Part shown: positions 6,257 to 61,926 of the stretch, piece by piece
Layout: every line of letters starts with the position of its first letter
How positions within the stretch are numbered: the first letter of the stretch is position 1
NCBI RefSeq assembly: GCF_029392675.1
Contig: NZ_CP113941.1
Span: 1,166,001-1,230,000, forward strand
Origin: Lactobacillus sp. ESL0684
GTDB lineage: Bacteria; Bacillota; Bacilli; Lactobacillales; Lactobacillaceae
Direction: 5' to 3'
DNA: 64,000 bases
Program-made: the position numbers and the translations under genes
Notes under the pieces: generated by a model
Seen by the model: the letters and a program-made list of their open reading frames with translations, nothing else
Told to the model about the DNA's origin: nothing
The model's database searches: none

Positions 6257-6275
6257 ATCAGCTTTTAAAAACACT

Positions 6276-6347: not shown

Positions 6348-6363
6348 TTGTTATTTTTTAAAA

Positions 6364-6395
6364 AGCAGGTACACTACTTGATGTGCCTGTTTTTT
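6364..6395 (+). terminator. Terminator after the permease relic and lepB
   Basis: GCAGGTAC / GTGCCTGT stem (one wobble) followed by six T. Probably the original permease terminator, now serving lepB. Confidence 0.75.
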
Positions 6396-6482
6396 GTATG
6401 GCAAAATCAACACATAACTAGAATTAAAATATTCTTGCAAGTATTATATAATATACTCAAATAGAAAATTAAGGAGAATTAA

Positions 6483-7295: not shown

Positions 7296-7330
7296 TAGTG
7301 ACTTAGCATTTAGATAAGGAGGATATTTAG

Positions 7331-8032
7331 ATGAGTTATATCGAAGTAAAGCACAATTATAAACGTTATCGAACTGGAAAAACCGAAGTTTTAGCTAATA
7401 ATGACGTTAATTTTACGATCGAAAAAGGTGAATTAGCAATCATTCTTGGAGCATCTGGTGCTGGTAAGTCAACAATTCTCAATATCTTAGGAGGAATGGA
7501 TACTAACAGTGACGGCAAAGTAATTATTGATGGCAAAAATATTGCCAACTATAATAAACGTCAACTTACGACTTATCGGCGTAATGATATTGGTTTTGTT
7601 TTTCAATTTTATAACTTAATCCAAAATTTAACAGCCAAAGAAAATGTTGAATTAGCCTCTGAAATTGTCCCTGACGCCTTAGATCCAGTCCAAACATTGA
7701 TTGATGTCGGACTTAAGCAAAGAATTAATAATTTTCCAGCTGAATTATCCGGTGGTGAACAGCAACGGGTGGCAATTGCCCGCGCGATTGCAAAAAATCC
7801 AAAAATTCTACTCTGTGATGAACCAACTGGTGCTCTTGATTACGAAACTGGCAAGAGTGTATTACAGACCATTGCCAATATGAGCCGTAAAGATGGTGCG
7901 ACTGTTGTTATCGTGACACATAACAGTACCATTGCACCAATTGCTGATCGGGTAATTCACTTTCACGATGGACAAGTTACCAAAATTACTCAAAATAGAC
8001 ATCCCGAAGATATTGCAAACATTAGATGGTAA
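7331..8032 (+). CDS. ABC exporter ATP-binding protein, MacB/LolD type
   Basis: A 233-residue ATPase with Walker [10 protein letters not shown] at residues 40-48, signature L-S-G-G-E-Q-Q-R near 138-145, Walker [12 protein letters not shown] near 160 and a His switch (V-T-H-N). The signature and the F-Q-F-Y-N-L Q-loop are typical of MacB-like systems paired with FtsX-fold permeases. AGGAGG precedes the start. The permease follows within 15 bases, so the two are almost certainly one transporter. Confidence 0.95.
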
Positions 8033-8046
8033 AGAGGGCTTTTTTG

Positions 8047-10815: not shown

Positions 10816-10819
10816 AACT

Positions 10820-10857
10820 AAAAAGGTAGCATTTCAATTTGAAGTGCTACCTTTTTT
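10820..10857. terminator. Bidirectional terminator between permease and grpB
   Basis: AAAAGGTAGCA...TGCTACCTTTT hairpin with an A run on one side and a T run on the other. The stop codon of the converging gene lies inside it. Confidence 0.85.
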
Positions 10858-11413
10858 GTGCAAAATAAGCATTAGCATGTTGCTTAATTTCGTCAATCAC
10901 TGGCCCCTTAGCATCAGCATAATCTTGAACTGTTGACCAATTTTGCTTAGCCAGGTCGGCTTTTGTTTGCTGATATTTTAAGCGATCAACCTCATTAATT
11001 CTGAGCCAATCTCGGAAGTTAACTAAGTCTTTTGCTTCTTTACTGTTGGGACTATAAACATGCAAATGTAGACGTTCGCCAACATCAATCAGCATCCGAT
11101 GTTCTTCAAAGTCTGGCTCGCGTATCCGCAAGCTAAAGCCTGCTTCTTCCAGCTGTGGCAAGTAACTTTGCTCCTTAGCTGAATCAGGAACTAGCAGTAA
11201 AATATCAACAATTGGCTTAGCACATAATCCCGGAATTGCCGTCGAACCAACATGTTCGATTTTTAGGGCTGTTTTACCTAAGGCCCGCTTAATTTTAGTT
11301 TTTTGAGCTTCAAAAAACGTTGCCCAATTTGGATCATAATCGACTAATTTAATAGGCTTATTTTTGGCTACCTTGCCAATAGTTACCCTTTGTAAATGCT
11401 CAAGTGATGTCAT
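10847..11413 (-). CDS. GrpB/UPF0157 family nucleotidyltransferase-like protein
   Basis: A 188-residue GrpB-family protein. The motif V-D-Y-D-P-N-W-A-T-F-F near residues 23-33 and E-H-V-G-S-T-A-I-P-G-L-C-A-K-P-I-V-D-I-L near 53-72 are diagnostic of the UPF0157/GrpB fold, related to nucleotidyltransferases (G-S...D-I motif). No defined physiological substrate. It converges on the FtsX-like permease and shares its terminator; monocistronic. Confidence 0.9.
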   Translation of the reverse strand: MTSLEHLQRVTIGKVAKNKPIKLVDYDPNWATFFEAQKTKIKRALGKTALKIEHVGSTAIPGLCAKPIVDILLLVPDSAKEQSYLPQLEEAGFSLRIREPDFEEHRMLIDVGERLHLHVYSPNSKEAKDLVNFRDWLRINEVDRLKYQQTKADLAKQNWSTVQDYADAKGPVIDEIKQHANAYFAQKR

Positions 11414-11626
11414 TTAACAGTCCCCCCTACTTCGACAATCTTAAATGTTATTATAGCAAAATTTCTGAAATAAGAATGGGACTAAAATGATTTTTATGCT
11501 ATACTACCTCACATAGCCTTAATGTTAAACTATCAAATAGGTCTTCAAAATTAAACAGTAAAAATGATTATCACATCCTTCCTTTTTAGTGATAGCCAAT
11601 TTTAACTTAATTTATGGAGCATATTT

Positions 11627-12391
11627 TTGAAAAACATTTTATCAATTGAACACTTAAAAAAGACCTACGAAAAACGCGGACAAAATTTCACTGCGTTAGT
11701 CGATGTTTCGTTTACAATCGGTCAAGGAGAAATAGTATCTTTATTAGGGCCAAATGGTGCAGGTAAAACTACTATTGTCTCAATTATTGGCGGCTACTTG
11801 CTGCCAACTGCTGGTAAAGTCATCATGAATGGTCATGACATTACCACCACCAGAAAAAGACCCAGAATGGGCGTTTCTTTTGGCGGGGAATTAGGATTTT
11901 ACCGTAGTGCAACTGCTAAACAAAACCTATCTTTTTTTGCTGATTTAGCTAAAGTCCCATATAGAAAACAAACAGCAGAAATTACTCGGGTACTATCAAT
12001 AGTTGACTTAGCAGGCGTTGCCAATAAAAAAATAAGTGCCTTTTCTAAAGGCATGATTCAAAGGCTACATATTGCTCGTGCTCTGCTTGGCAATCCTAGT
12101 TTGCTGCTCCTTGACGAACCAACTAGCGGTTTGGATGTTGAAATTGCTAGTAGCATTCGCAACACGGTAAAGCAGCTAGCCGATAGCGGCATCAGTATCT
12201 TGCTTACCAGTCATACAATGACTGAAGTTGAGCAATTAGCCAATAATATTATTTTATTGGGGGCTGGCAAAGTATTTGCCAGTGGCAGCGTCACTGAAAT
12301 TGTTAAGCAAGCAAATAGCCAAAGTTCTGACCATCCCAATACCTTGGAAGAATCTTACTTAGCATTGGCACCAAAACTGCGGAGGAAATAA
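11627..12391 (+). CDS. ABC-2 type exporter ATP-binding protein
   Basis: A 254-residue ATPase with Walker A G-P-N-G-A-G-K-T at 41-48, a degenerate signature F-S-K-G-M-I-Q-R, Walker B L-L-L-L-D-E-P-T-S-G-L-D and a His switch S-H-T-M-T-E. This is the CcmA/NatA-like class that works with ABC-2 permeases in drug, lantibiotic or sodium export. It starts at TTG (11627) with TGGAGC seven bases upstream; no better start exists. Two permeases follow with 2- and 1-base junctions, forming a three-gene operon. Confidence 0.92.
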   Translation: MKNILSIEHLKKTYEKRGQNFTALVDVSFTIGQGEIVSLLGPNGAGKTTIVSIIGGYLLPTAGKVIMNGHDITTTRKRPRMGVSFGGELGFYRSATAKQNLSFFADLAKVPYRKQTAEITRVLSIVDLAGVANKKISAFSKGMIQRLHIARALLGNPSLLLLDEPTSGLDVEIASSIRNTVKQLADSGISILLTSHTMTEVEQLANNIILLGAGKVFASGSVTEIVKQANSQSSDHPNTLEESYLALAPKLRRK

Positions 12392-12393
12392 CA

Positions 12394-13125
12394 ATGAGAT
12401 TTATCCGTTTGTTTTATTTCCATGTCAAAGATTACTTGTCAGATCAGTACTTCGTCTGGTTAACAATTACCAGTACAGTATCGATCTTCTTAGTCCAATA
12501 CACTGTCGCTTATGCCAGTCATACTCTTACTAATCCTATGCTTTGGCGACAAAGCGGGATTTTCGGACTATGGACTTCGTGTACCACTGTTGCTGGCTGC
12601 ATTAATTTTGAACAGGCAAAAGGCACATTGCCCTACCTATTGAACAATCAATACGATGAACGTCTGTCACTAATTACGTTATTGCTACCTGCTTCTAGTT
12701 ATGGACTGTGTAGTTTTCCGATTGCCTTTATTTTAGCCAAAATTTTTGGCGTGGCAACTGGACAAGTTACCGGACAGTTTGTCTTAAGCTGCTTACTATT
12801 ATGGCTGGCAGCAAGCTTGATGGGAATCTTAATTGCCTCTTGCTTAACCCTAACTAGCGATGCGATGGTTTACGAAACGCTAATTGGTACACCAATTTTA
12901 TTGTTAGCTGGGTTATTCGGTAACAGCGCAATTCTAACACCATTAACTAACATTTCTAAGTGGTTGATTCCATTAACTACACCCGTTGCCAATATTACCA
13001 GGCAGCAAAGCCTTGACTGGCCTGCCTACTTATGCAGTCTGTGTCTTTGGATGATTCTGATTAATTTAGTAGTTAAAAAGATTAACTTTTTAGCTCGTAA
13101 GAAAGGAGCTCTGAAGATAATCTAA
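12394..13125 (+). CDS. ABC-2 type permease subunit (first)
   Basis: A 243-residue protein with six hydrophobic segments and short loops, lacking enzymatic motifs. Position directly after the ATPase (two bases) and size fit the membrane half of an ABC-2 exporter. I do not recognise a specific subfamily. Its stop overlaps the start of the next permease by one base, which suggests a heterodimeric channel made at equal ratio. Confidence 0.8.
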   Translation: MRFIRLFYFHVKDYLSDQYFVWLTITSTVSIFLVQYTVAYASHTLTNPMLWRQSGIFGLWTSCTTVAGCINFEQAKGTLPYLLNNQYDERLSLITLLLPASSYGLCSFPIAFILAKIFGVATGQVTGQFVLSCLLLWLAASLMGILIASCLTLTSDAMVYETLIGTPILLLAGLFGNSAILTPLTNISKWLIPLTTPVANITRQQSLDWPAYLCSLCLWMILINLVVKKINFLARKKGALKII

Positions 13126-51104: not shown

Positions 51105-52289
51105 TTAATAAGCACGCTGACCTTTTTTATAGACAATCTTGTTGGCTTGTGCCACTGCATGGACATCTGCCAACGGATTCCCGTCTAAGACCAGAAAATC
51201 GGCATATTTGCCTTCCTCTAACGTGCCATATTCATCGTCAATCTTCATTAACTTAGCCGAATTAACGCTCGTGCGTAGCGCTTCGTAATTAGTAAAACCT
51301 TGCTCTACCAATAACTGCAACTCAACGGGCGTCATCGTAAAATCATTAAATGGTGAACCAGCATCTGTACCCAAGGTAATTGGTACGCCGCGTTCTTTGG
51401 CATGAGTAATATTTTTACGTAGATCATCTAAAGCATCTGTGGCCTTTTTGATTTCCCATTCTGGCACTTTACCCTGGGCATAAGTTGGAAATGCCCAATC
51501 TGCCACTACCGTTGGAGTCAGATAAGTTCCTTGCTCAAGCATTAAATCAATTTCTTCATCATTAACATAGAAGCCATGTTCAACACTGTCAACCCCGGCT
51601 TTAATCGCATTCATAATCCCTGGATTGCCTTCTGCATGAGCTGCAACAATCAAATTCTTATGGTGAGCTTCTTCAACAGCAACGTGCATTTCGGCAACGC
51701 TAAGTTGCGGATCATCCATAAAATCATTCTTGGTCATGACTCCGCCAGTCGCCATCAATTTAATGTTTTTGGCACCTTTTTTCAGACCTTGACGAACAGC
51801 TTTACGCATTTCATCAGGTGAATCAACTAAGTGTCCAAAGCTAGGCGAATCTCCATGACCACCAGTCATTGAATATGCCATTCCAGACGGCATAATGTCA
51901 GGTGCCTTAGTTATTTTACCGGTTTGCACTAAATGACTCATTGTAATATCAATATCATATGCACTGCCGCACTCCCGAATATAAGTCACACCTGAGCGCA
52001 AGAAATCATGCAAGTGCTGCAAGCCTCGAACTGTGGCTGTTACAACGTCAGCTCCTAAGTCAGCATCATAACTGTCTGAATCACTCACAATATGAGTATG
52101 GCAATTGATAAGTCCTGGCATCACATATTTGCCTGCCAAATCGACTACTTGATCAGCTATTGGTGCCTGACCAGTACCAATCAAAGTTATCTTCCCCGTT
52201 TCATCGTCAACCACTAGATAGCTATCAGCTTTTACAGCTTCTGTTGCACCATCATATAACTTTGCATTTGTATAAACTGTTTTGGTCAT
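51105..52289 (-). CDS. Metal-dependent amidohydrolase, copy 2
   Basis: Same length (394 residues) and same metal-ligand set as copies 1 and 3. Over most of its length it is closer to copy 3 at protein level (for example W-A-F-P-T-Y-A and N-A-I-K-A-G-V-D-S), but the C-terminal block G-N-P-L back to V-E-Q-G-F is identical to copy 1 in DNA. First gene of a two-gene unit with copy 1. The promoter lies at about 52322-52351. Confidence 0.9.
   Translation of the reverse strand: MTKTVYTNAKLYDGATEAVKADSYLVVDDETGKITLIGTGQAPIADQVVDLAGKYVMPGLINCHTHIVSDSDSYDADLGADVVTATVRGLQHLHDFLRSGVTYIRECGSAYDIDITMSHLVQTGKITKAPDIMPSGMAYSMTGGHGDSPSFGHLVDSPDEMRKAVRQGLKKGAKNIKLMATGGVMTKNDFMDDPQLSVAEMHVAVEEAHHKNLIVAAHAEGNPGIMNAIKAGVDSVEHGFYVNDEEIDLMLEQGTYLTPTVVADWAFPTYAQGKVPEWEIKKATDALDDLRKNITHAKERGVPITLGTDAGSPFNDFTMTPVELQLLVEQGFTNYEALRTSVNSAKLMKIDDEYGTLEEGKYADFLVLDGNPLADVHAVAQANKIVYKKGQRAY
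51175..51319. repeat. Gene-conversion tract, copy 2
   Basis: Partner of 49969-50113; perfect identity over 145 bases. Confidence 0.9.
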
Positions 52290-52318
52290 GATTATTCACC
52301 CCTTAAATCGTCGCTTTC

Positions 52319-52346
52319 TTCATTATAATTTAATATTTTAATACTT
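52319..52346 (-). promoter_or_regulatory. Shared upstream box of amidohydrolase copy 2
   Basis: Contains -10 TATAAT (52322-52327). Over 27-28 bases it differs from the box before copy 3 (54032-54059) at only about two positions, although the surrounding leader DNA is not alike. Confidence 0.6.
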
Positions 52347-52557
52347 AGCAAATTGTTTTACAATATTAAATTAAATAAAATGATAATAATTTAGCAATTA
52401 TAAATGTTATTTATTACATCGCTAGACTTGAAAATACAAATTAGCCAAAAAGCCATAGCTTAACTATATAGACAAAATCTAAAAAGTATCAAAAGCTAGT
52501 AAATATAAAGAATGCCATTTTTATGTGTTTCTCATAATTTATCAAAAAATGTTATAT

Positions 52558-52583
52558 AAAAAAGACGGTCATAATTGACCGTC
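52558..52583 (-). terminator. Terminator of a candidate antisense RNA
   Basis: Minus-strand GACGGTCA-ATTA-TGACCGTC followed by six T; perfect 8-bp stem. No protein gene on the minus strand precedes it, so it implies a small RNA running across the toxin-like ORF. Confidence 0.75.
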
Positions 52584-52700
52584 ACCGCGCGTTGCAAGTA
52601 GTCACCTTGCATGCACGTTAAGTATCTCGTGCAAAATTTCATATTTTTACTCATGTTGTATCTTGTGTTTGCAAAAGCTCAAGATGTGCTTGATGATATC
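52558..52700 (-). ncRNA. Candidate antitoxin RNA (antisense)
   Basis: Extent approximate. A minus-strand transcript ending at the terminator above would contain three consecutive hairpins: GCACG/CGTGC (52613-52632), GCAAG/CTTGC (52594-52610) and the terminator stem. It would cover the start region of the small ORF at 52611-52730. A weak promoter candidate on the minus strand is TTGAGC-16 bp-TACAAC within the ORF. This layout fits a type I antitoxin; no expression evidence. Confidence 0.4.
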
Positions 52701-52730
52701 AAAGATATCATTGACAAACTACGTAAGTAG
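52611..52730 (+). CDS. Candidate type I toxin, 39-residue membrane peptide
   Basis: The ATG at 52611 opens a 39-codon frame: short N-terminus, a hydrophobic stretch of about 14 residues (9-22, N-F-I-F-L-L-M-L-Y-L-V-F-A), then an acidic/basic tail D-V-L-D-D-I-K-D-I-I-D-K-L-R-K. One membrane helix with a charged C-terminus is the form of type I toxins. Weak point: no Shine-Dalgarno before the ATG, though hairpins in the leader could hide the true signal. GTG at 52629 or ATG at 52653 are alternative starts. A perfect terminator follows 10 bases after the stop. Confidence 0.45.
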   Translation: MHVKYLVQNFIFLLMLYLVFAKAQDVLDDIKDIIDKLRK

Positions 52731-52740
52731 TTCAGCTGCT

Positions 52741-52764
52741 AAAGCTCAGGTTTTCCTGAGCTTT
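52741..52764 (+). terminator. Terminator after the small toxin-like ORF
   Basis: AAAGCTCAGG-TTTT-CCTGAGCTTT, perfect 10-bp stem with T tail on the plus strand. Confidence 0.85.
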
Positions 52765-52816
52765 TTCATTATGCAGATCGGAATAATTAAGTACACCTAT
52801 CTTTGATGTCTCTAGC

Positions 52817-54001
52817 TTAATATGCCCGTTGGCCCTTTTTGTAGACAGCTTTATCCGCTTGGGCTACTGCATGAACATCTGCCAACGGATTTTCATCTAA
52901 GACTAAAAAGTCAGCATACTTACCCTCAGCTAAGGTGCCATATTCATCATCAATCTGCAGCAATTTAGCAGAATTAACGCTAGTTCGCAGAGCTTCATAA
53001 TTAGTAAAGCCTTGTTCCACTAACAGCTGTAATTCAACTGGCGTCATGGAGAAGTCATTGAATGGCGTACCAGCATCTGTTCCCAAAGCAATCTTGACGC
53101 CGCGGTCTTTGGCATGTGTAATATTCTTACGCAAATCGTCTAGTGCATCAGCCGCTTTTTTGATTTCCCATTCCGGAACCTTACCTTCAGCGTATGTCGG
53201 AAAAGCCCAGTCAGCCACAACAGTTGGCGTCAAATAAGTCCCCTGCTCAAGCATCAAGTCGATTTCTTCATCATTAACATAAAAGCCATGCTCGATGCTA
53301 TCGACTCCAGCCTTAATGGCATTCATAATTCCTGGATTTCCTTCAGCGTGAGCCGCAACCGTCAAACCCTTATGGTGAGCTTCCTCAACTGCAGCATGCA
53401 TTTCGGCAACGCTAAGTTGTGGATCATTCATAAAGTCATTCTTAGTCATAACACCACCAGTTGCCATGACTTTAATGTTTTTGGCACCTAATTTCAAACC
53501 CTGACGGACAGCCTTGCGCATTTCATCTGGTGAATCAACTGCATGACCAAAATTAGGTGTATCGCCATGACCACCAGTCATCGAATATGCTCGACCCGAT
53601 GGCAAGATTTCTGGAACCTTAGTAATTTTCCCTTCAGCTATCAAACGACTTAGCGTAATATCAATATCATAATTGCTGCCCAATTCTCTAATGTAGGTAA
53701 CACCAGACTGCAAAAATGTATGCAGGTTCTTGACTGAACGCACAGTCGTCTCAACCACATTAGCTGTAGGATCGCCATCAGCGGCGCTGGGATCATTAAC
53801 CGTGTGAGTATGGCAATTAATCAGACCTGGCATCACATATTTATTAGCTAAGTCAACCGTTTGGTCAGCAGCTGGCGCTTGCCCCGTGCCCATAGCAGTA
53901 ATCTTACCAGTCCCATCATCAACTACCATGTAGCTGTTTGCCTTGACCGCTTCTTGCTCGCCATCATAGAGATTAACATTTGTATACGCTGTTTTCGTCA
54001 T
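52817..54001 (-). CDS. Metal-dependent amidohydrolase, copy 3
   Basis: Third 394-residue paralogue with all metal ligands conserved (H-T-H, K-N-I-K-V-M-A-T-G-G, A-A-H-A-E-G, E-H-G-F, G-T-D-A-G). It has its own promoter box. Differences from copies 1 and 2 spread evenly, so it has not taken part in the recent conversion. Separated from copy 2 by 527 bases that hold the toxin-like locus. Confidence 0.9.
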   Translation of the reverse strand: MTKTAYTNVNLYDGEQEAVKANSYMVVDDGTGKITAMGTGQAPAADQTVDLANKYVMPGLINCHTHTVNDPSAADGDPTANVVETTVRSVKNLHTFLQSGVTYIRELGSNYDIDITLSRLIAEGKITKVPEILPSGRAYSMTGGHGDTPNFGHAVDSPDEMRKAVRQGLKLGAKNIKVMATGGVMTKNDFMNDPQLSVAEMHAAVEEAHHKGLTVAAHAEGNPGIMNAIKAGVDSIEHGFYVNDEEIDLMLEQGTYLTPTVVADWAFPTYAEGKVPEWEIKKAADALDDLRKNITHAKDRGVKIALGTDAGTPFNDFSMTPVELQLLVEQGFTNYEALRTSVNSAKLLQIDDEYGTLAEGKYADFLVLDENPLADVHAVAQADKAVYKKGQRAY

Positions 54002-54031
54002 TTTGTACTCCTTAAACTAACTTCAATTTAT

Positions 54032-54059
54032 TTCATTATATTTTAATATTCTAATACTA
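54032..54059 (-). promoter_or_regulatory. Shared upstream box of amidohydrolase copy 3
   Basis: Contains -10 TATAAT (54035-54040); near-identical to 52319-52346. Confidence 0.6.
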
Positions 54060-54168
54060 GATGAACATTTTTACAACAATTAATTAAAAATATCTTTCAA
54101 GAAATTCCAGGCTCTCTAAAATTGCGCAACAAAAAAATCCCTTACTAATTAGCAACGGATTTTTTTAA

Positions 54169-54483
54169 TTATTTTTGACCAGGAAATTTATCTTTAGGAA
54201 GATATTCAATCTGCTTGACGTATTGACCTTTGTGCTCGATATAGATATACTGCCGACCTGGATCATATCCGCCAATATATTTAATTTTATAAGGTAACTT
54301 CTTGCCGTTATTATCAACGGCCTGCACATTACGATATTTTTGCGTATGCTTAGGCACCTTAGCATAACTAATCTCCATGTCGATTAACGGATTGATATAA
54401 TCCGTGTATTGGTTATGGATTAGTAAAATACCGCCACAGCAGACAACTATTATACCCAAAACAGTTAGTAAAAATTTCTTCAT
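54169..54483 (-). CDS. YxeA-family (DUF1093) secreted/anchored small protein
   Basis: A 104-residue protein with an N-terminal signal/membrane segment (4-24) and an OB-like domain with Y-I-Y-I-E-H-K-G. YxeA-family genes accompany lactococcin-972-type loci and BceAB-like transporters. Last gene of the locus. Its start overlaps the stop of the ATPase gene by four bases. Confidence 0.85.
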   Translation of the reverse strand: MKKFLLTVLGIIVVCCGGILLIHNQYTDYINPLIDMEISYAKVPKHTQKYRNVQAVDNNGKKLPYKIKYIGGYDPGRQYIYIEHKGQYVKQIEYLPKDKFPGQK

Positions 54484-55148
54484 CTGTCTATCCTCTCATT
54501 TTCTGTAATATGAATAGTTTGATCTTTAATTTCAATTACATAGTCACACTGCTGCCAAATCTGCGGTGAATGTGTGGCAATAATTACAGTAGCATCTGGA
54601 CCAAAGTCATTTAAGAGCGAATTGAGCACTACTTCACTGTTTTCAGTATCAAGCGAACCCGTTGGTTCGTCAGCAAAAATCACATCAGGTTTCTTCAAGA
54701 TTGCTCGCGCTAAAGCAATCCGTTGCTGCTCACCACCACTCAGGGTATAAACTTTTTGCTTAAGCGATAATTTGCCTAGTCCAACTCGCTCAAGCACTGC
54801 CTGCATTGCCACTTGTGCCGACTGTTTAGTATGTTTTTGATTCGCCAAACCAATAGCCAAATTTTGCTTAACCGTTTCATTATCAATCAGGCCAAAATTC
54901 TGAAAGACAAAGCCAAAATGATTGCGATATAGTTGTTTTTGATTTTTGGCATTAACTGGTAAATCATCGAAAGTCACGCTGCCAGAACTTGGCTCCTCCA
55001 ATCCGCTCAAGATATTCAAAAAAGTTGTCTTGCCAGCACCACTCTTACCAATAATGGCATAGCTTTTGCCGGCAGAGAGCTGGCAGTTAACTTTTTCTAA
55101 GACGGGTTTTTGTTTAAATTCTTTAGTAATCGCTTCTACTTTAATCAT
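54480..55148 (-). CDS. ABC ATPase of the lactococcin-972-associated transporter
   Basis: A 222-residue ATPase: Walker A G-K-S-G-A-G-K-T-T, Q-loop F-Q-N-F-G-L, signature L-S-G-G-E-Q-Q-R, Walker B V-I-F-A-D-E-P-T-G-S-L-D, His switch A-T-H-S. It belongs to the MacB/L_ocin_972_ABC type that partners the large DUF1430 membrane protein upstream. Presumed to provide immunity or export. The ATG at 55148 is preferred over 55157. Confidence 0.92.
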   Translation of the reverse strand: MIKVEAITKEFKQKPVLEKVNCQLSAGKSYAIIGKSGAGKTTFLNILSGLEEPSSGSVTFDDLPVNAKNQKQLYRNHFGFVFQNFGLIDNETVKQNLAIGLANQKHTKQSAQVAMQAVLERVGLGKLSLKQKVYTLSGGEQQRIALARAILKKPDVIFADEPTGSLDTENSEVVLNSLLNDFGPDATVIIATHSPQIWQQCDYVIEIKDQTIHITENERIDR

Positions 55149-55157
55149 TATTTCCAC

Positions 55158-57164
55158 CTAATTTCCATGGTTAAGAGTTGTTAATAAATTTTTTTGCCCA
55201 CGCCAACAAGTAAACAAGATTACTATGGTTTCTAATAACAAAAAGACCAACATAATTGGGATATTACTTAACCCATGTCCGATTTGCAAAACAATTATCA
55301 TCACAAGCAAGTCGAGTAACAAATTCCCTAAAAGAAACATATTAATAAGTTTGAGGTTACTTCTGCCAAAGATGGCATTAACTGCCATTTTTCGCCGACA
55401 CCTTTGTAAAAAGCTGCTACTAATAAAAATCTCAATGAAAACTAATTGGATAACAGAAACTAGCACTGCAATAATTAAAACACTAAATTTTTGTTTTGTT
55501 TGCGTCTTATAATCGCTTAATTGCACTTTTTGATTAGAAATACCAACAACATTATTAGTCAAACCCAAGCGTTTAATACTCTTTCGCAAGTTAGTTAAAT
55601 CAGTGAACCTGAGTAAGCCTTGACTAGCGGTAGCTAAGTAGAAGTTATCTGATAGCAATCTATCATTAACGATAACCAATATCGGATCAACTGAAACTGT
55701 ATCTTGCATAACTGCCAAAAGTTGATAATTATAAATAATTTGTTTGCTCTTAATTGGCACGACCTTTAGCTTAATTGACCCGTGGACTGAATAATAATTA
55801 GGCAAACTACGCTGAAAATTAATAAAATCAAGTAACTGCTTTTTAAATTTTGCCAATTGAAACATACGATCTTCTGGCACTAGCAACACCACATTATTTT
55901 TAGACATTTTAGGTAAAGTATAATTAGTATTATTAGTCAGTTTAATTGAGTTCTTCTTTAAATAAGTAGAATTGACATACATTAGATTGCCATAATCAGG
56001 ATCTGTATCATTAATTTTAGGCTGTAAGTTTTGTGAATTTCGAGCAAGAATTGCCTGATTTTCGATTGCCAATCTATGAACTGCTTTGCCAACTTCATTT
56101 GTTTCTTTAACATTTGGCGCATCTGGATCTTCATTATCCCAAAAAAGACTTAAGTCATAATTAGTTTGTTGGTTATTCCATAACTTAATAGCTATTTGGT
56201 CCATTTGATAATCTTTGACTCCATTAACTAAAGCTACAGTATTCATTGTTAATAAAATCATAACTGCAATTTTCAATAAGTATCCAATTACTAATAATTG
56301 CTTAGTATTAGTTTGCCCCTTGATAGCTGCATATATATCAATTAACTTTAAGGCTAAATATGATATTAAATCCAATACCAAAAAGATAACGGATAAGCTA
56401 AAAATAATCACTATAGTATATAGCATAAACAGCCTTATTCCAGAAGCTGTCAACTGCAAAATGCTCCAGAAAAAAGCTAATCCAATTAATACTAGATCAG
56501 TTGCTCCCAGTGGTAAAAGTTCTTTTAACAAGCCATGCCTAATGATTTGCCAATTGCTATAACCATTAATCTTCATTACAGCAAAAGTTTTAAATCGATA
56601 AATCTTCTCAAGCAACATCACAATTAACAAGATACCTAATAGACTAATAAAGGCAAAAATTATCGCTTCAGAAAAACTACCAGTGACCATCATAAATAAT
56701 CGCTTAGGCGTTAAAGCAGTATCTGCAGCCATTATTTTTAAACCCAATTTTTTAAATTTACTAAATACTTTTTCTAAAGTTGCTCCACGAGCAGAAGTAT
56801 AATAATAGCCAATTACGGCTTCTAGCTGCAATGCCTGCTTATCTAGTCTTTTGGTTTGCTCATTTAGGTAAAAAGAACCAGTAGCATTCTTATCAGAATT
56901 AAACTCATAAATTGCTTTACTATTATGACCATTTAAATCATTAAAACGGGCTTTCATTAACGAAATGTTCTCATCATTTGCCAGTTTGGTCATCTGACTG
57001 AAAATTTTTCTTTTAGATTGCTTATTATCCCAAGCAACAACCATAATTGAGTTAGCGGTGTTAGGTATAGAATCAGTAGCATATGAGTTAAACAACAATG
57101 CGAAAATACCAACCATAGCAATTGTTAATGCTGCAAATAATAGCAACTTGATTTTTCTAAGCAT
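55158..57164 (-). CDS. Bacteriocin-associated integral membrane protein (DUF1430)
   Basis: A 668-residue FtsX-like permease with one N-terminal helix, an extracytoplasmic domain (about 30-165), a block of helices (about 168-330), a second large extracytoplasmic domain (about 330-555) and three C-terminal helices. It fits the bacteriocin-associated (putative immunity) membrane proteins found with lactococcin 972 genes. Its ATPase partner is nine bases downstream. Lower GC than the housekeeping genes around it. Confidence 0.87.
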   Translation of the reverse strand: MLRKIKLLLFAALTIAMVGIFALLFNSYATDSIPNTANSIMVVAWDNKQSKRKIFSQMTKLANDENISLMKARFNDLNGHNSKAIYEFNSDKNATGSFYLNEQTKRLDKQALQLEAVIGYYYTSARGATLEKVFSKFKKLGLKIMAADTALTPKRLFMMVTGSFSEAIIFAFISLLGILLIVMLLEKIYRFKTFAVMKINGYSNWQIIRHGLLKELLPLGATDLVLIGLAFFWSILQLTASGIRLFMLYTIVIIFSLSVIFLVLDLISYLALKLIDIYAAIKGQTNTKQLLVIGYLLKIAVMILLTMNTVALVNGVKDYQMDQIAIKLWNNQQTNYDLSLFWDNEDPDAPNVKETNEVGKAVHRLAIENQAILARNSQNLQPKINDTDPDYGNLMYVNSTYLKKNSIKLTNNTNYTLPKMSKNNVVLLVPEDRMFQLAKFKKQLLDFINFQRSLPNYYSVHGSIKLKVVPIKSKQIIYNYQLLAVMQDTVSVDPILVIVNDRLLSDNFYLATASQGLLRFTDLTNLRKSIKRLGLTNNVVGISNQKVQLSDYKTQTKQKFSVLIIAVLVSVIQLVFIEIFISSSFLQRCRRKMAVNAIFGRSNLKLINMFLLGNLLLDLLVMIIVLQIGHGLSNIPIMLVFLLLETIVILFTCWRGQKNLLTTLNHGN

Positions 57165-57299
57165 AATTGCCCTCTTACCAGTTAAACCTATTCTTTCTAA
57201 TGCTTCTAAATTATTTTGCTGGCATTATCATACTATATTTCTTAAAAATCGTTTACATGTTTTATATTATTTAAACTTCTTTAGCGAATGTTAATAAGT

Positions 57300-57923
57300 T
57301 TAGTTATGTGGGGCAATATCAATTAACTTACCATCTTTAATTGTAAGAGCTTGATCAATAATGTTACCAATCTCAGATTGATAATGCGAAGCGAGAATCA
57401 CCAGCTTTCCTTGATCAGCTAAATGTACTAGTTCTTCATATAAAATAGCTCTACTAGATTCATCTAAGCCATTATTAATTTCATCCATTAACAAATACTT
57501 AGCATTGCTCAATGAATACATAGAAATCAAAAGTTTTTGTTTCATACCCAATGAATATTTTTTTATTGGCAATCTAACGTAGTCATTCATTTTCCAACGA
57601 TCTATTTCCTTATCAATTTGATTATTTGAATTCCATTGTCTTTTAATAAACTTTAAATAATCCAGACCAGACAAATTGTTATCAAACCAATCTGATGTTT
57701 CAAAATAAAATACTTCTTGTTTAACTTTATCAAAGGTTTGACCTGAAAATAGAATATTGCCTTGATTTGGCTTAATTAAGCTAACAATTGCTCTTAAAAC
57801 ACTAGTCTTCCCAGAACCATTTAAGGCATGAAGCAAATAAATTCTACCAGTTTGAAAATTATAATTAGCGTTTTGTAAAATAGGCTCGCGTAACTCAATA
57901 GTAACATTATTTAATTCAATCAT
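57300..57923 (-). CDS. ABC-2 type ATPase of the bacteriocin locus
   Basis: A 207-residue short ATPase. The Walker A region reads H-A-L-N-G-S-G-K-T-S, so the first glycine of GxxGxGKT is alanine. The signature is S-L-G-M-K-Q, Walker B Y-L-L-M-D-E-I-N-N-G-L-D and the His switch A-S-H-Y. Nineteen bases downstream of its permease. Probably a second transporter module for the bacteriocin, for self-protection. Confidence 0.88.
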   Translation of the reverse strand: MIELNNVTIELREPILQNANYNFQTGRIYLLHALNGSGKTSVLRAIVSLIKPNQGNILFSGQTFDKVKQEVFYFETSDWFDNNLSGLDYLKFIKRQWNSNNQIDKEIDRWKMNDYVRLPIKKYSLGMKQKLLISMYSLSNAKYLLMDEINNGLDESSRAILYEELVHLADQGKLVILASHYQSEIGNIIDQALTIKDGKLIDIAPHN

Positions 57924-57942
57924 TTTTACCCCTTAATATAAT

Positions 57943-59091
57943 TTATTTTCGTTTTAATTTTGAACTAAGCTTCGTTTCTAGCAAATTAATTAAAATTAGT
58001 ATTACTGTCCAAATAATCAAAATAAAGATTCCCATACTAAAAGTGATTTGACTATTCCTTGTAATTGAAGCTAAATTTCCATTAACTACATGTAAAGAAA
58101 AGATATAAGTAGTGGGGAAAAATTGAGCAATTTTTTGAAATGGTACAATAATTGTTGGCAAAAAAGCACCGCCAAGAATTATTAAACTACCAATTAATAA
58201 TGAATTTACTCGTGACTTAAAAATATTTACTACTAATAAAATAAATGCAGCTAAAAATGGTAAAACCAATATTTGAAGTATTAAAGTTGGTACTAAGCGA
58301 TCAAAAAGTGGTAAATACTCTGCAGTATTAGTTTTAATATTTACGCCAAGAGTTGGATATTTTAGAGTTCCTGGTCCAAATATCACGCTGGAAACTCCGA
58401 ATACAACTATCAATACCAAGCTTAGAATAAGTATACCAATTGCAAATCCTGAAACTAACTCAGTAAATTGAATATTTTTGCTTGGCAAAAGCGATACTTT
58501 ATCGAGCTTATCAGAATATCTTTCTGAATATAAATTAGTTAAAATAAAGATCAAAACTAAGGTTAATAAAATAGGTAAGAGATTATCAAGGCAATTCAAT
58601 ATAAATAATAAACCAGTTACTGGGTATTCGTCGCTTTCTTCAGGTAAATTAGCTTTCTTCAAAGTATCAAAACGTAAAATTTCTTTTTTAATTGCTTGTT
58701 TTAATTCAGGATCTTGCTCACTATCGTGATTTAGCAATTTCTGGTTCTGTTTCTTTAATAAAGTATAAGCTTGAGACCAATTATTCGCATTAATATCCTT
58801 TATAATCGCCCGATTATCTTTTATTTCATCGGTTTCATAGCTATACTCTTCCTTTGCTAAATTATATTTTCTTGAATTACGTGGATATTTTTTCATATCT
58901 GCTTGAGCTTTTTGTTTATTCTTTTTTGCCATTGCAATATTTTCATATGTATTCCCAATTGACGAATACTGCGCAGTAACTTTACTATTTTGATATAAAA
59001 CATCAAATAAAATTACTAAGATAATCCCGATTCCAATAAAGGTAAGCGTATTTTTTATAACTTTTTTTAATTCTAAAGTAAAATATGCCAT
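57943..59091 (-). CDS. ABC-2 type permease of the bacteriocin locus
   Basis: A 382-residue permease: helix 1 at about 15-32, a lysine-rich extracytoplasmic loop (about 40-160), then five helices to the C-terminus. No close family recognised; this layout (one helix, long loop, five helices) is common among bacteriocin and lantibiotic immunity permeases. Separated from the bacteriocin gene by a terminator, so probably expressed at a lower level by read-through. Confidence 0.82.
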   Translation of the reverse strand: MAYFTLELKKVIKNTLTFIGIGIILVILFDVLYQNSKVTAQYSSIGNTYENIAMAKKNKQKAQADMKKYPRNSRKYNLAKEEYSYETDEIKDNRAIIKDINANNWSQAYTLLKKQNQKLLNHDSEQDPELKQAIKKEILRFDTLKKANLPEESDEYPVTGLLFILNCLDNLLPILLTLVLIFILTNLYSERYSDKLDKVSLLPSKNIQFTELVSGFAIGILILSLVLIVVFGVSSVIFGPGTLKYPTLGVNIKTNTAEYLPLFDRLVPTLILQILVLPFLAAFILLVVNIFKSRVNSLLIGSLIILGGAFLPTIIVPFQKIAQFFPTTYIFSLHVVNGNLASITRNSQITFSMGIFILIIWTVILILINLLETKLSSKLKRK

Positions 59092-59124
59092 TCCGTAATC
59101 CTCCGCGACTCAAGTTATTAACAT

Positions 59125-59155
59125 AAAAAAACCTGCTACTATTAGCAGGTTTTTT
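59125..59155. terminator. Intra-operon terminator after the bacteriocin gene
   Basis: AAAAAACCTGCT-ACTATT-AGCAGGTTTTTT, strong in both directions. It lies between the bacteriocin gene and the transporter genes. Confidence 0.88.
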
Positions 59156-59162
59156 ATTGGCT

Positions 59163-59489
59163 TTAATATCCGCCTTTATAATAGTTAGTATGTCTATATG
59201 CCTTGTAATTCCAACCACCACCAATTTGGGTATTTTTATAACTAGTTTGATACGATGAAGTAGGAATACTTATATAGTGATAATTATGAAAGTTTGATTC
59301 AACACCAGTAATAGTATTTCGATCAAAATTATAATATTTTACAGCACTATACTTTTTGGCCTTTCTTTCCAGAACTGCACTAGCATCTCCCTTTGTAGCA
59401 TTTTCCGAAGCAGCAAATGCTGGAACAGCAGTCATACCAATTGTAGCAACCGTTGCTAGACTAACAGCAATTTTCTTTAAGCTTTTCAT
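59163..59489 (-). CDS. Lactococcin-972-family bacteriocin precursor
   Basis: A 108-residue secreted peptide. Sec signal: K-K start, hydrophobic core, A-F-A cleavage after residue 26, leaving about 82 residues. The mature part is Tyr/Asn/Gly-rich with G-V-E-S-N-F-H-N-Y-H, Q-I-G-G-G-W-N-Y-K-A and ends Y-Y-K-G-G-Y, matching the lactococcin 972 pattern (S-N-Y-H, G-V-W-A-K). Lactococcin 972 binds lipid II and blocks septum formation. The ribosome site AGAAGGAG lies inside the 3' end of the small upstream ORF, whose stop is one base away. Confidence 0.85.
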   Translation of the reverse strand: MKSLKKIAVSLATVATIGMTAVPAFAASENATKGDASAVLERKAKKYSAVKYYNFDRNTITGVESNFHNYHYISIPTSSYQTSYKNTQIGGGWNYKAYRHTNYYKGGY

Positions 59490-59490
59490 T

Positions 59491-59568
59491 TTAATTATCT
59501 CCTTCTTCTAAATCATTATCAAAATCCTTTAAACTAAACCAAAACAAGAGTTTAAGTAATCCTTCCAT
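59491..59568 (-). CDS. Short peptide, possible Rgg-type pheromone precursor
   Basis: 25 codons: M-E-G-L-L-K-L-L-F-W-F-S-L-K-D-F-D-N-D-L-E-E-G-D-N. AGGAG sits seven bases before the ATG. Residues 4-13 are hydrophobic with an aromatic F-W-F core; the C-terminus is acidic. It is the first gene of the bacteriocin transcript and is divergent from an Rgg-like regulator, the position occupied by SHP-type pheromones in streptococci. It may instead be a leader peptide that only couples translation. No homologue is claimed. Confidence 0.6.
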   Translation of the reverse strand: MEGLLKLLFWFSLKDFDNDLEEGDN

Positions 59569-59640
59569 AATAATTCTCCTAACAAAAATAAGATATCATT
59601 TTCATGAACAAATTAAATGCATTTATTTATGTTCAACAAT

Positions 59641-59669
59641 ATAGTAACGTGTTTTTCATATTTTGTCTC
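59641..59669 (-). promoter_or_regulatory. Promoter of the peptide-bacteriocin transcript
   Basis: -10 TACTAT (59641-59646), 17-bp spacer, weak -35 GAGACA (59664-59669). The poor -35 suggests dependence on an activator. Confidence 0.6.
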
Positions 59670-59684
59670 GTGCAATTTTTGCAC
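59670..59684. promoter_or_regulatory. Palindrome abutting the -35, likely Rgg operator
   Basis: GTGCAA-TTT-TTGCAC, perfect 6-bp arms, immediately next to the -35 of the bacteriocin promoter. A related repeat TGCAAA...TTTGCA (59721-59741) lies in the regulator's own promoter. Confidence 0.65.
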
Positions 59685-59719
59685 ACCACTTATATTTTAT
59701 GCTTAAGATAATTACTACA

Positions 59720-59748
59720 TTGCAAATCAATCAACTTTGCATTACACT
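59720..59748 (+). promoter_or_regulatory. Promoter of the Rgg-like gene
   Basis: -35 TTGCAA (59720-59725), 17-bp spacer, -10 TACACT (59743-59748); overlaps the TGCAAA/TTTGCA repeat. Confidence 0.6.
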
Positions 59749-59777
59749 TAGCTCATAAGAAATAAGGGAGCAAAATT

Positions 59778-60608
59778 ATGATTATCTTGGAATTTGGAGA
59801 AACCTTTCGTAAAATACGTTTAGGACGTGGAATTAGTCAAGAAGCCCTAGCTAAAGATCTATTCAGCCGTGAAACTATTTCAAAGATTGAATCTGGTAAA
59901 ATTTATTGTCCTCGTGGCAATTATGATGTCTTACTTGAACGCTTAGGTGTTGGCGATTTAGAATTCAAATATATTCAGGCAAATTATTCATTTACTCCGA
60001 AAGAAAAAATTCTTTATCAGCTATTTGATATTAGTCTTAGTACCGAAACCGATAAGATTAAGCAACTACTAACAGATTGTTCAAAAATCGAAAATGATTC
60101 AGACATTAAGCGTATTTCCTTAATATTACAAGCGTATCTATTGATAAGTAAGGATCATGATCTTGAAAAGGCCAAAAAACTAGTTCAGCCCATTTGGTAT
60201 GATAATTTACAAAAAGCTAAACTATTTACTATTAATGACATCTGTATTCTTGACATGATTGCCTATGCCTTTGATGATACAACTAATCAGAAAATAATTA
60301 CTAGAATTCTTAATGAGATTGACGATCATTATCCCTTTCTCAAATCATTAAAATGCAACGTCTTAATCAATTCGGCCAGTTTAGACTTAGATAATCATGA
60401 TTTTGCAGCTGCCAAGACTAGCTTAACTAAGGCTGCAGCAATTGCTAAGGCTAACCATCAATATGACAAATTACTACTCTGTCAAGCAGAAATTGCGATT
60501 TGCGATCATGATATTTCGCAAGCTAATTATTACGCTGATTTGCTTGAGGAGATTGGCGCAGAACCCATTGCTCCAGCTCTAAAAATGGAAATCGAATCTT
60601 TTACGTAA
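59778..60608 (+). CDS. Rgg/GadR/MutR-like regulator (XRE HTH plus helical repeats)
   Basis: A 276-residue regulator. An XRE-type helix-turn-helix (about 8-55; G-I-S-Q-E-A-L-A, then S-R-E-T-I-S-K-I-E-S-G) is followed by about 215 residues of TPR-like helices (for example F-A-A-A-K-T-S-L-T-K-A-A-A-I-A near 205-220). Length and layout match Rgg proteins, which sense exported short peptides. GGGAG precedes the ATG. Divergent from the bacteriocin operon and its likely activator. Confidence 0.85.
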   Translation: MIILEFGETFRKIRLGRGISQEALAKDLFSRETISKIESGKIYCPRGNYDVLLERLGVGDLEFKYIQANYSFTPKEKILYQLFDISLSTETDKIKQLLTDCSKIENDSDIKRISLILQAYLLISKDHDLEKAKKLVQPIWYDNLQKAKLFTINDICILDMIAYAFDDTTNQKIITRILNEIDDHYPFLKSLKCNVLINSASLDLDNHDFAAAKTSLTKAAAIAKANHQYDKLLLCQAEIAICDHDISQANYYADLLEEIGAEPIAPALKMEIESFT

Positions 60609-60612
60609 ATAT

Positions 60613-60642
60613 TTGTACTTAATGAGATACACATGCTATAAT
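60613..60642 (+). promoter_or_regulatory. Promoter of the yefM-yoeB operon
   Basis: -35 TTGTAC (60613-60618), 18-bp spacer, -10 TATAAT (60637-60642). Confidence 0.65.
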
Positions 60643-60660
60643 TTATTTGAGGTGATATAC

Positions 60661-60951
60661 ATGCCAGCAGAGATTAGAGCTGTTAGTACAAAAGAGTTAA
60701 GACAAAATTTTAAAAAATATGCAGATGATATTACTAATTTTGGTGAAACTGTGATTGTTACGCGTCCAGAAAACAAAAATGTGGTTGTTATTTCAGAAAG
60801 TGAATATAATTCTTGGCAAGAAACCAATTATTTACTTGCTTCTCAAAAGAACCGTAATGCGCTGCAGAACTCCATTAACCAGCTTGACAAGCCTGATTCA
60901 AAAAGTCACTTATTGACGCCGACAGAATTTGAGCAGCTAGCAAATGACTAA
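60661..60951 (+). CDS. YefM/Phd-type antitoxin
   Basis: A 96-residue antitoxin: N-terminal Phd/YefM DNA-binding fold (V-S-T-K-E-L-R-Q-N-F-K-K-Y, V-I-V-T-R-P, V-V-V-I-S-E-S-E-Y) and an acidic C-terminus that binds the toxin. The ATG at 60661 follows GAGGTG; a longer frame from 60613 is not supported because it would start within the promoter. Overlaps the toxin gene by eight bases. Confidence 0.92.
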   Translation: MPAEIRAVSTKELRQNFKKYADDITNFGETVIVTRPENKNVVVISESEYNSWQETNYLLASQKNRNALQNSINQLDKPDSKSHLLTPTEFEQLAND

Positions 60952-61213
60952 GTTAAACATTCTATTTACCGAAGCTGCTTGGCAAGAATATATAGAATGG
61001 AAAAAAATCGATAAGGCGTTAGTCAAAACGATTGATCAACTGATTATGGACACAATTCGGCATCCTTTTACTGGTATTGGCAAACCAGAGCCACTACAAC
61101 ATGAACTAAGTGGATTTTGGTCAAGGAAAATTAACAGTGAACATCGAATGGTATATGGAGTTACTAAAAGCCAAATTGAAATTATTCAGTTAAAATATCA
61201 TTATCAAAAATAA
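60944..61213 (+). CDS. YoeB/Txe-type mRNA interferase toxin
   Basis: An 89-residue RelE-superfamily toxin. The C-terminal half is canonical: G-I-G-K-P-E-P-L, L-S-G-F-W-S-R-K-I-N-S-E-H-R-M-V-Y, and the final L-K-Y-H-Y with the catalytic His. Cleaves mRNA in the ribosomal A site by family knowledge. Encoded directly after its antitoxin. Confidence 0.94.
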   Translation: MTKLNILFTEAAWQEYIEWKKIDKALVKTIDQLIMDTIRHPFTGIGKPEPLQHELSGFWSRKINSEHRMVYGVTKSQIEIIQLKYHYQK

Positions 61214-61246
61214 CCAGTTATTATCAAAAGAATAACTGGTTATTTT
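61208..61246 (+). terminator. Terminator after yoeB
   Basis: AAATAACCAGTTATT / AATAACTGGTTATTT perfect stem and T run. Confidence 0.88.
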
Positions 61247-61272
61247 TTATCTAAATTGATATATTCAAACAT

Positions 61273-61677
61273 TTACTTCTGTTGCAAAATGGCATTAGTC
61301 AATAAAGCTGAGAAATTTAGCTTTTGCTTTTTAGCCTTGCGGTCAGCCCATTGCGGAATAGTCAAAGTTTTCTTGACTAGTTTATCATTATTCAAATATT
61401 TAGAAACATTGGTTTTAATCAAAGTTACAAAGGCATTTTCTGGTACCTTTACTTCATTAATGTTGGAGGGTGGGTTCACCGAATCGGCATTTTCAATATA
61501 ATCTGCCAAAGTCAGTCCTAGCGCTTCTTCAGCCATAGCAATACCATATGAAATATCGTCGGTGTTAATTCCTGTAAATGCTCCTTGAATATCCGGAAAT
61601 TCTATCAAATATCCGCCCTTAGCTTCTGGAGTAAAGACAGCAGGATAGACCAAAAATAGATCACTAGTTTTACTCAT
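61273..61677 (-). CDS. hicB: HicB-type antitoxin
   Basis: A 134-residue HicB. The N-terminal degenerate RNase H fold (Y-P-A-V-F-T, G-G-Y-L-I-E-F-P-D-I-Q-G-A-F-T-G) is followed by a DNA-binding C-terminus (L-N-F-S-A-L-L-T-N-A-I). Neutralises HicA and represses the operon. The ATG at 61677 follows AGAGGTG. Separated from hicA by 57 bases that contain a terminator-like hairpin. Confidence 0.9.
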   Translation of the reverse strand: MSKTSDLFLVYPAVFTPEAKGGYLIEFPDIQGAFTGINTDDISYGIAMAEEALGLTLADYIENADSVNPPSNINEVKVPENAFVTLIKTNVSKYLNNDKLVKKTLTIPQWADRKAKKQKLNFSALLTNAILQQK

Positions 61678-61692
61678 TTTATTCACCTCTTT

Positions 61693-61728
61693 GAAAAAAC
61701 GCAAAGTGATAATTTATCAACTTTGCGT
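61693..61728 (-). terminator. Terminator-like hairpin between hicA and hicB
   Basis: Minus-strand ACGCAAAGT-loop-ACTTTGCGT with six T, directly before the hicB ribosome site. Confidence 0.75.
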
Positions 61729-61734
61729 AACTAG

Positions 61735-61926
61735 TTAATGTCTGGTTAGCCCAGCCTCTTTAAGGATTTTACGTTCAAGTCCATTACCTAAATCTTGATT
61801 TCCATGAACAGGAATTGTGATTCTTACACCATTTTTATATAAATGATGATGTGAGCCAGCAACTCTGCGTTCAATCCAACCATTATCTAGCAACAACTTT
61901 AACATATCCTTTCCTGTAAGTGGCAT
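61735..61926 (-). CDS. hicA: HicA-type mRNA interferase toxin
   Basis: A 63-residue HicA with the dsRBD-like fold: G-W-I-E-R-R-V-A-G-S-H-H-H-L-Y containing the catalytic His, and V-P-V-H-type strand I-P-V-H-G-N. Cleaves mRNA when not bound by HicB. AGGAGG precedes the ATG. First gene of the module, toxin before antitoxin as is usual for hicAB. Confidence 0.92.
   Translation of the reverse strand: MPLTGKDMLKLLLDNGWIERRVAGSHHHLYKNGVRITIPVHGNQDLGNGLERKILKEAGLTRH

Follow-up and report, generated by a model that had tools for sequence, protein, structure and literature searches.

A candidate RRNPP-type peptide switch facing a bacteriocin-like precursor operon in Lactobacillus sp. ESL0684

The genome of Lactobacillus sp. 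ESL0684 consists of one contig (1.89 Mb), from which a stretch of 64,000 nucleotides (NZ_CP113941.1, positions 1,166,001 to 1,230,000; hereafter the window) was analysed. It contains a regulator gene that diverges from a 25-codon open reading frame (ORF) and a gene for a bacteriocin-like precursor. As far as can be judged from sequence, this locus probably encodes a self-contained peptide switch of the RRNPP type, which would govern the precursor operon. In the mechanism we propose, the regulator would bind TGTGC-N7-GCACA, a 17-bp operator that at one end reaches the -35 region of the facing promoter; when peptide-bound, it would activate this promoter. The short hydrophobic peptide would be the first product of the promoter; its production would therefore be autocatalytic and might depend on cell density. 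One transcript would carry the peptide, the precursor and, past a terminator-like hairpin, genes for transport and protection. A transporter of, for instance, the EcsAB/PptAB type probably exports the peptide, which may be trimmed and is probably taken up again through an oligopeptide permease. EcsB, an RseP/Eep-like protein and 11 SBP_bac_5 proteins are encoded in the genome. The features that argue for this reading are the predicted receptor fold, the fixed operator-promoter spacing, the recurrence of the small ORF and the differing cargo genes behind it. The core of the locus is made up as follows:

59778-60608 (+): Rgg-like regulator gene, 276 amino acids, N-terminal helix-turn-helix (HTH) and C-terminal helical, tetratricopeptide repeat (TPR)-like domain
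59669-59685 (-): putative operator TGTGCAAAAATTGCACG, 17 bp, one mismatch to TGTGC-N7-GCACA, the inner 15 bp a perfect palindrome
59641-59646 (-): -10-like hexamer TACTAT, 22 nt past the operator, with a poor -35; an overlapping TATATT at 25 nt is an alternative
59491-59568 (-): 25-codon ORF MEGLLKLLFWFSLKDFDNDLEEGDN, ATG start, Shine-Dalgarno (SD) sequence TTAGGAG; proposed signal precursor
59163-59489 (-): bacteriocin-like precursor gene, 108 amino acids, signal-like N-terminus, secretion predicted

The start codons of the regulator gene and the 25-codon ORF are 209 bases apart (59569-59777). The initial annotation, made from the sequence alone, had described an Rgg-like gene and a lactococcin-972-like gene diverging from 208 bases. 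The divergence and the Rgg-like character were confirmed; the distance is one base longer, and the family label did not stand, as no PF09683 match was obtained. Its description of the 25-codon ORF as well initiated agrees with the ATG and the AGGAG upstream of it.

In the Pfam search of the window regulator, only HTH models (HTH_31 and HTH_3) scored above cut-off. The AlphaFold (AF2) model, built with 18 sequences, has a mean predicted local distance difference test (pLDDT) value of 89 and displays an HTH followed by TPR-like helices, which is the architecture of RRNPP/Rgg receptors (N-terminal HTH and C-terminal TPR-like domain). Comparison of this model with PDB gave 47 matches at E<=0.001 (TM-scores, 0.39-0.65; identity, 12-18%). 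All of them are RRNPP-type proteins, namely Rgg2, Rgg3, Rgg144, ComR, PlcR, PrgX, NrpR and a putative Listeria regulator, 4ryk. A profile of the 18 regulators matched best to 9lth, NrpR of S. salivarius (E 2e-15), followed by Listeria Lmo0325, Rgg144 and Rgg2; the RopB chains in PDB, which comprise the C-terminal domain only, scored 16.7 bits. TIGR01716, the model of the Rgg/GadR/MutR C-terminal domain, matched 11 of the 18 family members at E<=1 (best 2e-8) and did not match the window regulator at this threshold. The Rgg-type peptide receptor postulated in the initial annotation is in line with the predicted fold, and we propose that the regulator acts as a peptide receptor and activator.

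The palindrome GTGCAA-TTT-TTGCAC (15 bp, 59670-59684) has zero mismatches. By itself it is little proof, since eight palindromes with up to two mismatches were found in the window versus 4.9 expected. Of the 37 homologous regulators or fragments, 18 have the motif TGTGC-N7-GCACA, with one mismatch or none, in the 300 bp upstream, 16 of these sites being perfect; 1.8% of 5000 random 300-bp windows from the same loci contained it, with the sites themselves still included. A -10-like hexamer begins exactly 21 nt past the operator in 15 of the 18 loci (base rate, 5.6% of positions); the exceptions are the window (22 nt), L037 (19 nt) and L046 (26 nt). These counts are not independent because the loci are related by descent, though several branches are covered. 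The window promoter was not listed in a scan for consensus promoters, in keeping with its poor -35. The perfect palindrome of the initial annotation is confirmed, and the position of the putative operator is one expected of an activator site. The apparent layout matches a class-II activator: an operator, about 20 nt, a -10 and a poor -35. A search of the genome itself revealed no perfect TGTGC-N7-GCACA site and 33 places with one mismatch, one of which is the window site, versus six for the reversed control pattern. Five further regulators with a perfect operator (L038, L039, L107, L108 and L109) face two small genes, apparently for membrane proteins.

In the genus, represented by one genome per species, a profile of 18 rows matched 19 of 75 genomes at E<=1e-20. 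The comparison set consisted of 37 regulators or fragments, and the tree included the 34 longer than 200 amino acids plus two outside rows. The window regulator belongs to a clade of 12 rows (support 100/99); the deep part of the tree is unsure, with long outside branches. Four rows of the clade (window, L033, L100 and L101) are located at the tpi/pgk site and six (L003, L034, L035, L096, L097 and L098) at the groEL site; the remaining rows are L037 and L036_6987. Lactobacillus sp. ESL0679 and ESL0701, which we take to be bee isolates, are among the relatives from this genus, and in L. helsingborgensis from Apis mellifera a plasmid encodes a relative of the regulator. In L036 (G034, 6122-8746), three related regulators are arranged in tandem. 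The genome of strain ESL0684 also contains a paralogous locus beside groEL (L003; G000:C1:545000-563000, 8858-12577), with an intact regulator and an operator with two mismatches. Its cargo ORF runs into the next gene, which codes for a membrane protein, and a small ORF was not seen; this locus is probably not a second working copy.

The initial annotation had suggested a search for co-conservation of the rgg gene, the small ORF and the bacteriocin gene. The comparison of relatives revealed an intact small ORF in seven of the 12 rows of the clade, with its ATG located 95-111 nt past the operator:

Window, 25 codons, MEGLLKLLFWFSLKDFDNDLEEGDN; L033, 14 codons, MSELLKLFVWLILK; L037, MDQLFRFVFLLFRKLS
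groEL-site loci: L034, MDYLWKKLLWACLKAIKEN; L097, MNYLWEKLLWFCSKKIN; L035, MNELLKTILFWLYRNSL; L096, MNELFKTIYFWLYRSSL

The seven peptides are 14-25 residues long, hydrophobic and partly amphipathic, with several charges and with E, S, D or N as the second residue. No secretion leader was recognisable by eye. A residue pattern is common to all seven: none of 5000 residue shuffles reached their similarity (ungapped from Met, residues 2-14), nor was it reached in 5000 shuffles of the five peptides without L096 and L097, although the test overstates the pattern, as the loci are related by descent. Over its whole length, the 14-residue L033 peptide matches residues 1-14 of the window peptide, after which the sequences vary; this places the apparent conserved core of about 14 residues at the N-terminus. 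The signal probably corresponds to these 14 or so residues or to part of them. The mature C-terminal peptide implied in the initial annotation does not fit this pattern, and C-terminal fragments would be the wrong first probe.

The sequence that codes for the last residues of the window peptide includes the precursor gene's ribosome-binding site, and the stop codon of the ORF lies 1 nt before the ATG of that gene. Such an arrangement would also be expected of a mere leader for translational coupling with the bacteriocin gene, with no peptide signalling. This explanation seems unlikely to us. In the other six of the seven loci, the small ORF and the next gene are 17-34 nt apart and the latter has an SD sequence of its own, and the amino-acid pattern persists across the loci. 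At the groEL site, the ORF also differs more between the two peptide types (64-67% identity; 79 and 93% within types) than the promoter and 5' untranslated region do (79-94%). Furthermore, L033 and L037 have different peptides in front of cargo genes whose products are 98% identical.

The same comparisons suggest that signal, receptor and cargo behave as modules of the proposed switch. Between the two peptide types of the groEL site, the HTH parts of the regulators are 94-95% and the receptor domains 73-85% identical; the respective values within types are 95 and 92% for the HTH and 80 and 88% for the receptor domain. By blastp at E<=0.01, the eight cargo proteins from the clade form five groups with no similarity to one another: window; L033 and L037; L034, L096 and L097; L035; and L100. 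Loci L035 and L096 share one peptide type (14 of 17 residues) and one receptor clade (support 99/99), while their cargo proteins have no detectable similarity. Conversely, the receptor domains of L033 and L037, with their near-identical cargo, are only 59% identical, and the peptides of L034 and L096 have three residues in common beside cargo that is 96% identical. The cases are few overall. In the groEL region as well, no two loci are closer than L035 and L096 (96.8%); part of the pattern could be due to descent alone. These exchanges also bear on the idea that the small peptide is itself an antimicrobial, a helper or a partner of the bacteriocin. It is hydrophobic, partly amphipathic, leaderless and apparently co-transcribed with a bacteriocin-like gene, which would suit such a role. 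However, a peptide type is retained beside unrelated cargo in L035 and L096 and differs beside the near-identical cargo of L033 and L037, and the peptide is the first ORF past the operator in seven loci, adjoining a regulator of the pheromone-receptor type. An antimicrobial, helper or partner role is very improbable.

Several observations weigh against a peptide switch. The TM-scores to known receptors are only moderate, the operator-to-hexamer spacing in the window is 22 rather than 21 nt, and EcsB, RseP and OppA are common families and little informative. The receptor domains of L034 and L097, which have the same peptide type, are less similar (80%) than those of L034 and L096 across types (85%). 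In both L034 and L096 the small ORF is intact, with a break in the cargo gene close to its start. Close pairs of the ORF differ mostly by amino-acid-changing substitutions: seven (one makes a stop) and two silent ones between L034 and L097, and three and none between L035 and L096. Coding is therefore argued from the residue pattern, the start codon and the SD sequence and not from purifying selection; the differences fit a fast-changing signal and, equally, weak constraint. Five of the 12 clade rows lack an intact small ORF. In L100 it contains stop codons and the cargo gene is open; in L101 and L098 the cargo gene is lacking and in L003 it is decayed; and L036_6987 is a tandem copy without a facing promoter of its own. 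Outside the clade, no small ORF was seen downstream of the operators of L036_6122 and L046, and the operator-bearing loci L038 and L106 have weak candidates only, of 13 codons (overlapping the next gene) and 17 codons, respectively. An exact copy of MSFIHLFGKEDNT is present in L038 and absent from L107 and L108.

The absence of a visible small ORF in L036_6122 and L046, as well as the retention of the regulator and an open cargo gene next to a broken small ORF in L100, would suit a regulator that acts through the operator without sensing this peptide, either alone or with another ligand. Against this, the ORF is in place in seven of the 12 clade rows, and peptide genes that are silent or absent in nature, beside a receptor that still responds, are described for L. 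reuteri (PMC10518010) and for the pneumococcal scb locus (PMC11796350). We consider such a regulator quite unlikely.

Sister clades without TGTGC-N7-GCACA carry other short hydrophobic ORFs, such as MISNFIFLFGCLAALF in L040 and L041. A 14-codon ORF, MLKIFLVGFSLLIG, has exact copies in L043 and L099 and none in L045 and L102. The sister regulators of these four loci, which have no TGTGC-N7-GCACA site, are located near lanthipeptide-like genes; the regulator of L043 faces a gene for a class III lanthipeptide synthetase, LanKC (above cut-off).

The survey for relatives of the precursor did not place it in the Lactococcin_972 family. No match was obtained in Pfam-A at E<=1 or at E<=10, and NCBIfam returned three unrelated families, far below their cut-offs (best E 0.003). 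A search with PF09683 at E<=10 gave zero matches in the eight genomes searched; over the order, the same model identified 33 places in 30 of 246 genomes. When the precursor was compared by hhalign with PF09683-type proteins (20 loci, of which 17 yielded a usable protein and three, L133, L140 and L141, were left out), the signal peptide alone matched; among 40 column shuffles preserving the signal part, the best outscored the real alignment. Membership in this family was therefore rejected. PDB sequences gave no match at E<=10, and plasmids gave two chance matches only (E 9-10). A structure predicted from the single sequence was too poor to use (pLDDT 49).

Homologs of the precursor, with 56-62% identity over the mature part, were found in genomes G094, G008 and G074, and a fragment in G075. 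The ATPase and the permease beside these homologs (L122-L125) are, respectively, 47-51% and 31-36% identical to those of the window. In L122 and L123 a different RRNPP-like regulator is located upstream of the precursor homolog. Between the two genes, L123 contains a 15-codon ORF, MMWWQLPVIFPYHSK (5821-5868), whose equivalent in L122 (from 5304) is interrupted by a stop. From its genetic surroundings, the precursor product may have an antibacterial action. Downstream of the precursor gene, the window contains the following features:

59126-59155 (-): inverted repeat with T-rich ends, terminator-like, directly 3' of the precursor gene
57943-59091 (-): ABC-2-type permease (PF12698, E 4.9e-6, below cut-off)
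57300-57923 (-): ABC ATPase, partner of the permease (PF00005; best NCBIfam match TIGR03740, far below its cut-off)
55158-57164 (-): bacteriocin-associated integral membrane protein, TIGR01654-like (E 5.1e-41, 140.9 bits, cut-off 189.35)
54480-55157 (-): bacteriocin export ABC ATPase, TIGR03608-like (E 2.6e-75, 252.4 bits, cut-off 254.85)
54169-54483 (-): YxeA-family protein, TIGR01655 (51.4 bits, above the cut-off of 29.65)

Resemblance to the Lcn972 system appears limited to the last three of these genes; the TIGR01654 and TIGR03608 matches are significant yet below the curated cut-offs, and that to TIGR01655 is above it. The inverted repeat was listed by the scan on the plus strand only but is nearly symmetrical, and might restrict read-through into the transport genes; the scan found five terminator-like sites versus 3.3 expected. 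In L033 (G032, about 7160-10330), the TIGR01654-like and ATPase genes were seen by eye to be in pieces, with transposase-like ORFs between them.

Peptide control of an Lcn972-like bacteriocin is known. The initial annotation had stated that no lactococcin-972 locus run in this way was known to it, which is superseded by the description of streptococcin B (mBio 2024; PMC11796350), whose Lcn972-like operon is activated by ScbR, a ComR-type regulator, together with the 19-amino-acid ScbS; activation was shown with ScbR and a synthetic six-residue C-terminal part of ScbS. That system resembles the window in its regulator superfamily, in an operator about 20 nt before the -10, in the peptide as first ORF and in the transport/immunity genes that accompany the bacteriocin gene; also, pneumococcal strains are devoid of the peptide gene (PMC11796350). 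It differs by a ComR-type receptor, a ComR box, a C-terminal signal of the WW type, a co-directional regulator gene and a genuine PF09683 bacteriocin (PMC11796350). In the window's clade, the operator is TGTGC-N7-GCACA and not a ComR box, and the peptides have no WW. A ScbR/ScbS-type arrangement, with a peptide differing by one residue, occurs in genome G131 (L132/L159).

Leaderless Rgg/RopB peptides (LCP) are reported from several Firmicutes, with a working example in Limosilactobacillus reuteri (PMC10518010). Likenesses to the window are an Rgg-type receptor whose gene often diverges from a very small hydrophobic ORF, SD-led and leaderless; a RopB binding site just upstream of the -35 in S. 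salivarius; putative ABC transporter genes downstream and a naturally broken peptide gene in L. reuteri; and a receptor C-terminal domain that diverges faster than the HTH (PMC10518010). The window ORF agrees with this class in being SD-led, divergent from the receptor gene and, by eye, without a secretion leader. The LCPs described are mostly 8-10 residues long and mostly aliphatic and aromatic, with few exceptions named (PMC10518010), unlike the charged peptides of 14-25 residues in the window's clade; TGTGC-N7-GCACA is unlike both RopB operators given there, and the cargo here is a varying bacteriocin-like gene. The words 'bacteriocin' and 'lactococcin' are absent from the main text of that paper.

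Among the 20 PF09683 loci, examined with 1.5-kb flanks, three (L126, L132 and L137) also hold a regulator matching the profile at E<=1e-3. L126/L157 (G225) has a PF09683 bacteriocin gene, a divergent Rgg that matches the family profile (E 1.5e-40) and a 26-amino-acid ORF, MKTWKNYLLLLAYLAILMVPHLLGGG, similar to short hydrophobic peptides (SHPs). The gene order is like that of the window: small ORF, bacteriocin, and then a large membrane protein and an ABC ATPase. The peptide of L126, which has a basic N-terminus and a long hydrophobic stretch and ends in GGG, is unlike that of the window. SHPs have a basic N-terminus, a hydrophobic stretch and a C-terminal mature part. The seven clade peptides depart from this by their second residue and by their N-terminal conserved part.

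Exchange of bacteriocin clusters beside conserved TprA and Rgg regulators was described for pneumococci (PMC6120550). As in the window's clade, the regulator is retained and the cargo replaced; the regulators and cargo are others, and the differences found here are between species and mostly at two sites, tpi and groEL. In S. thermophilus, SHP-associated Rgg regulators mostly control modified peptides (PMC12445099). No description of this Lactobacillus system was found in the open-access literature searched (titles and abstract openings, among the matches listed). Already known are a peptide-run Lcn972-like bacteriocin, streptococcin B, and leaderless Rgg/RopB peptide systems in Lactobacillaceae; different here are the receptor clade, the operator, the peptides of 14-25 residues with an N-terminal core, and the cargo.

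More tentatively, and with somewhat less than even confidence, we suggest a distinct class of Rgg-type signals: leaderless peptides of about 14 residues, read N-terminally by a Lactobacillus receptor clade that uses TGTGC-N7-GCACA. In this class, signal-receptor and bacteriocin modules would be exchanged independently, mostly at two fixed sites, giving close and apparently bee-associated lactobacilli different signals and weapons. If the proposed switch is real, these lactobacilli, whose relatives presumably include bee isolates, possess a compact peptide switch with a named operator and likely peptide core, in which one signal type occurs beside different weapons and the reverse. It would also suggest a repeated origin of short-peptide control over Sec-exported bacteriocins, namely in the window's clade, in ScbR/ScbS, in L126 and in L123 with MMWWQLPVIFPYHSK.

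No Rfam match at gathering score was obtained in the region 54000-61500. A tandem of two similar genes for amidohydrolase-like proteins of 394 amino acids occupies 51105-54001 (-); the Amidohydro_1 model was tested only for the copy at 52817-54001. On the other side of the locus, two toxin-antitoxin pairs sit between the regulator gene and tpi: a YefM/YoeB-type pair directly behind the regulator gene (60613-61213, +), and a pair of a HicB-like antitoxin and a HicA toxin (61273-61926, -).

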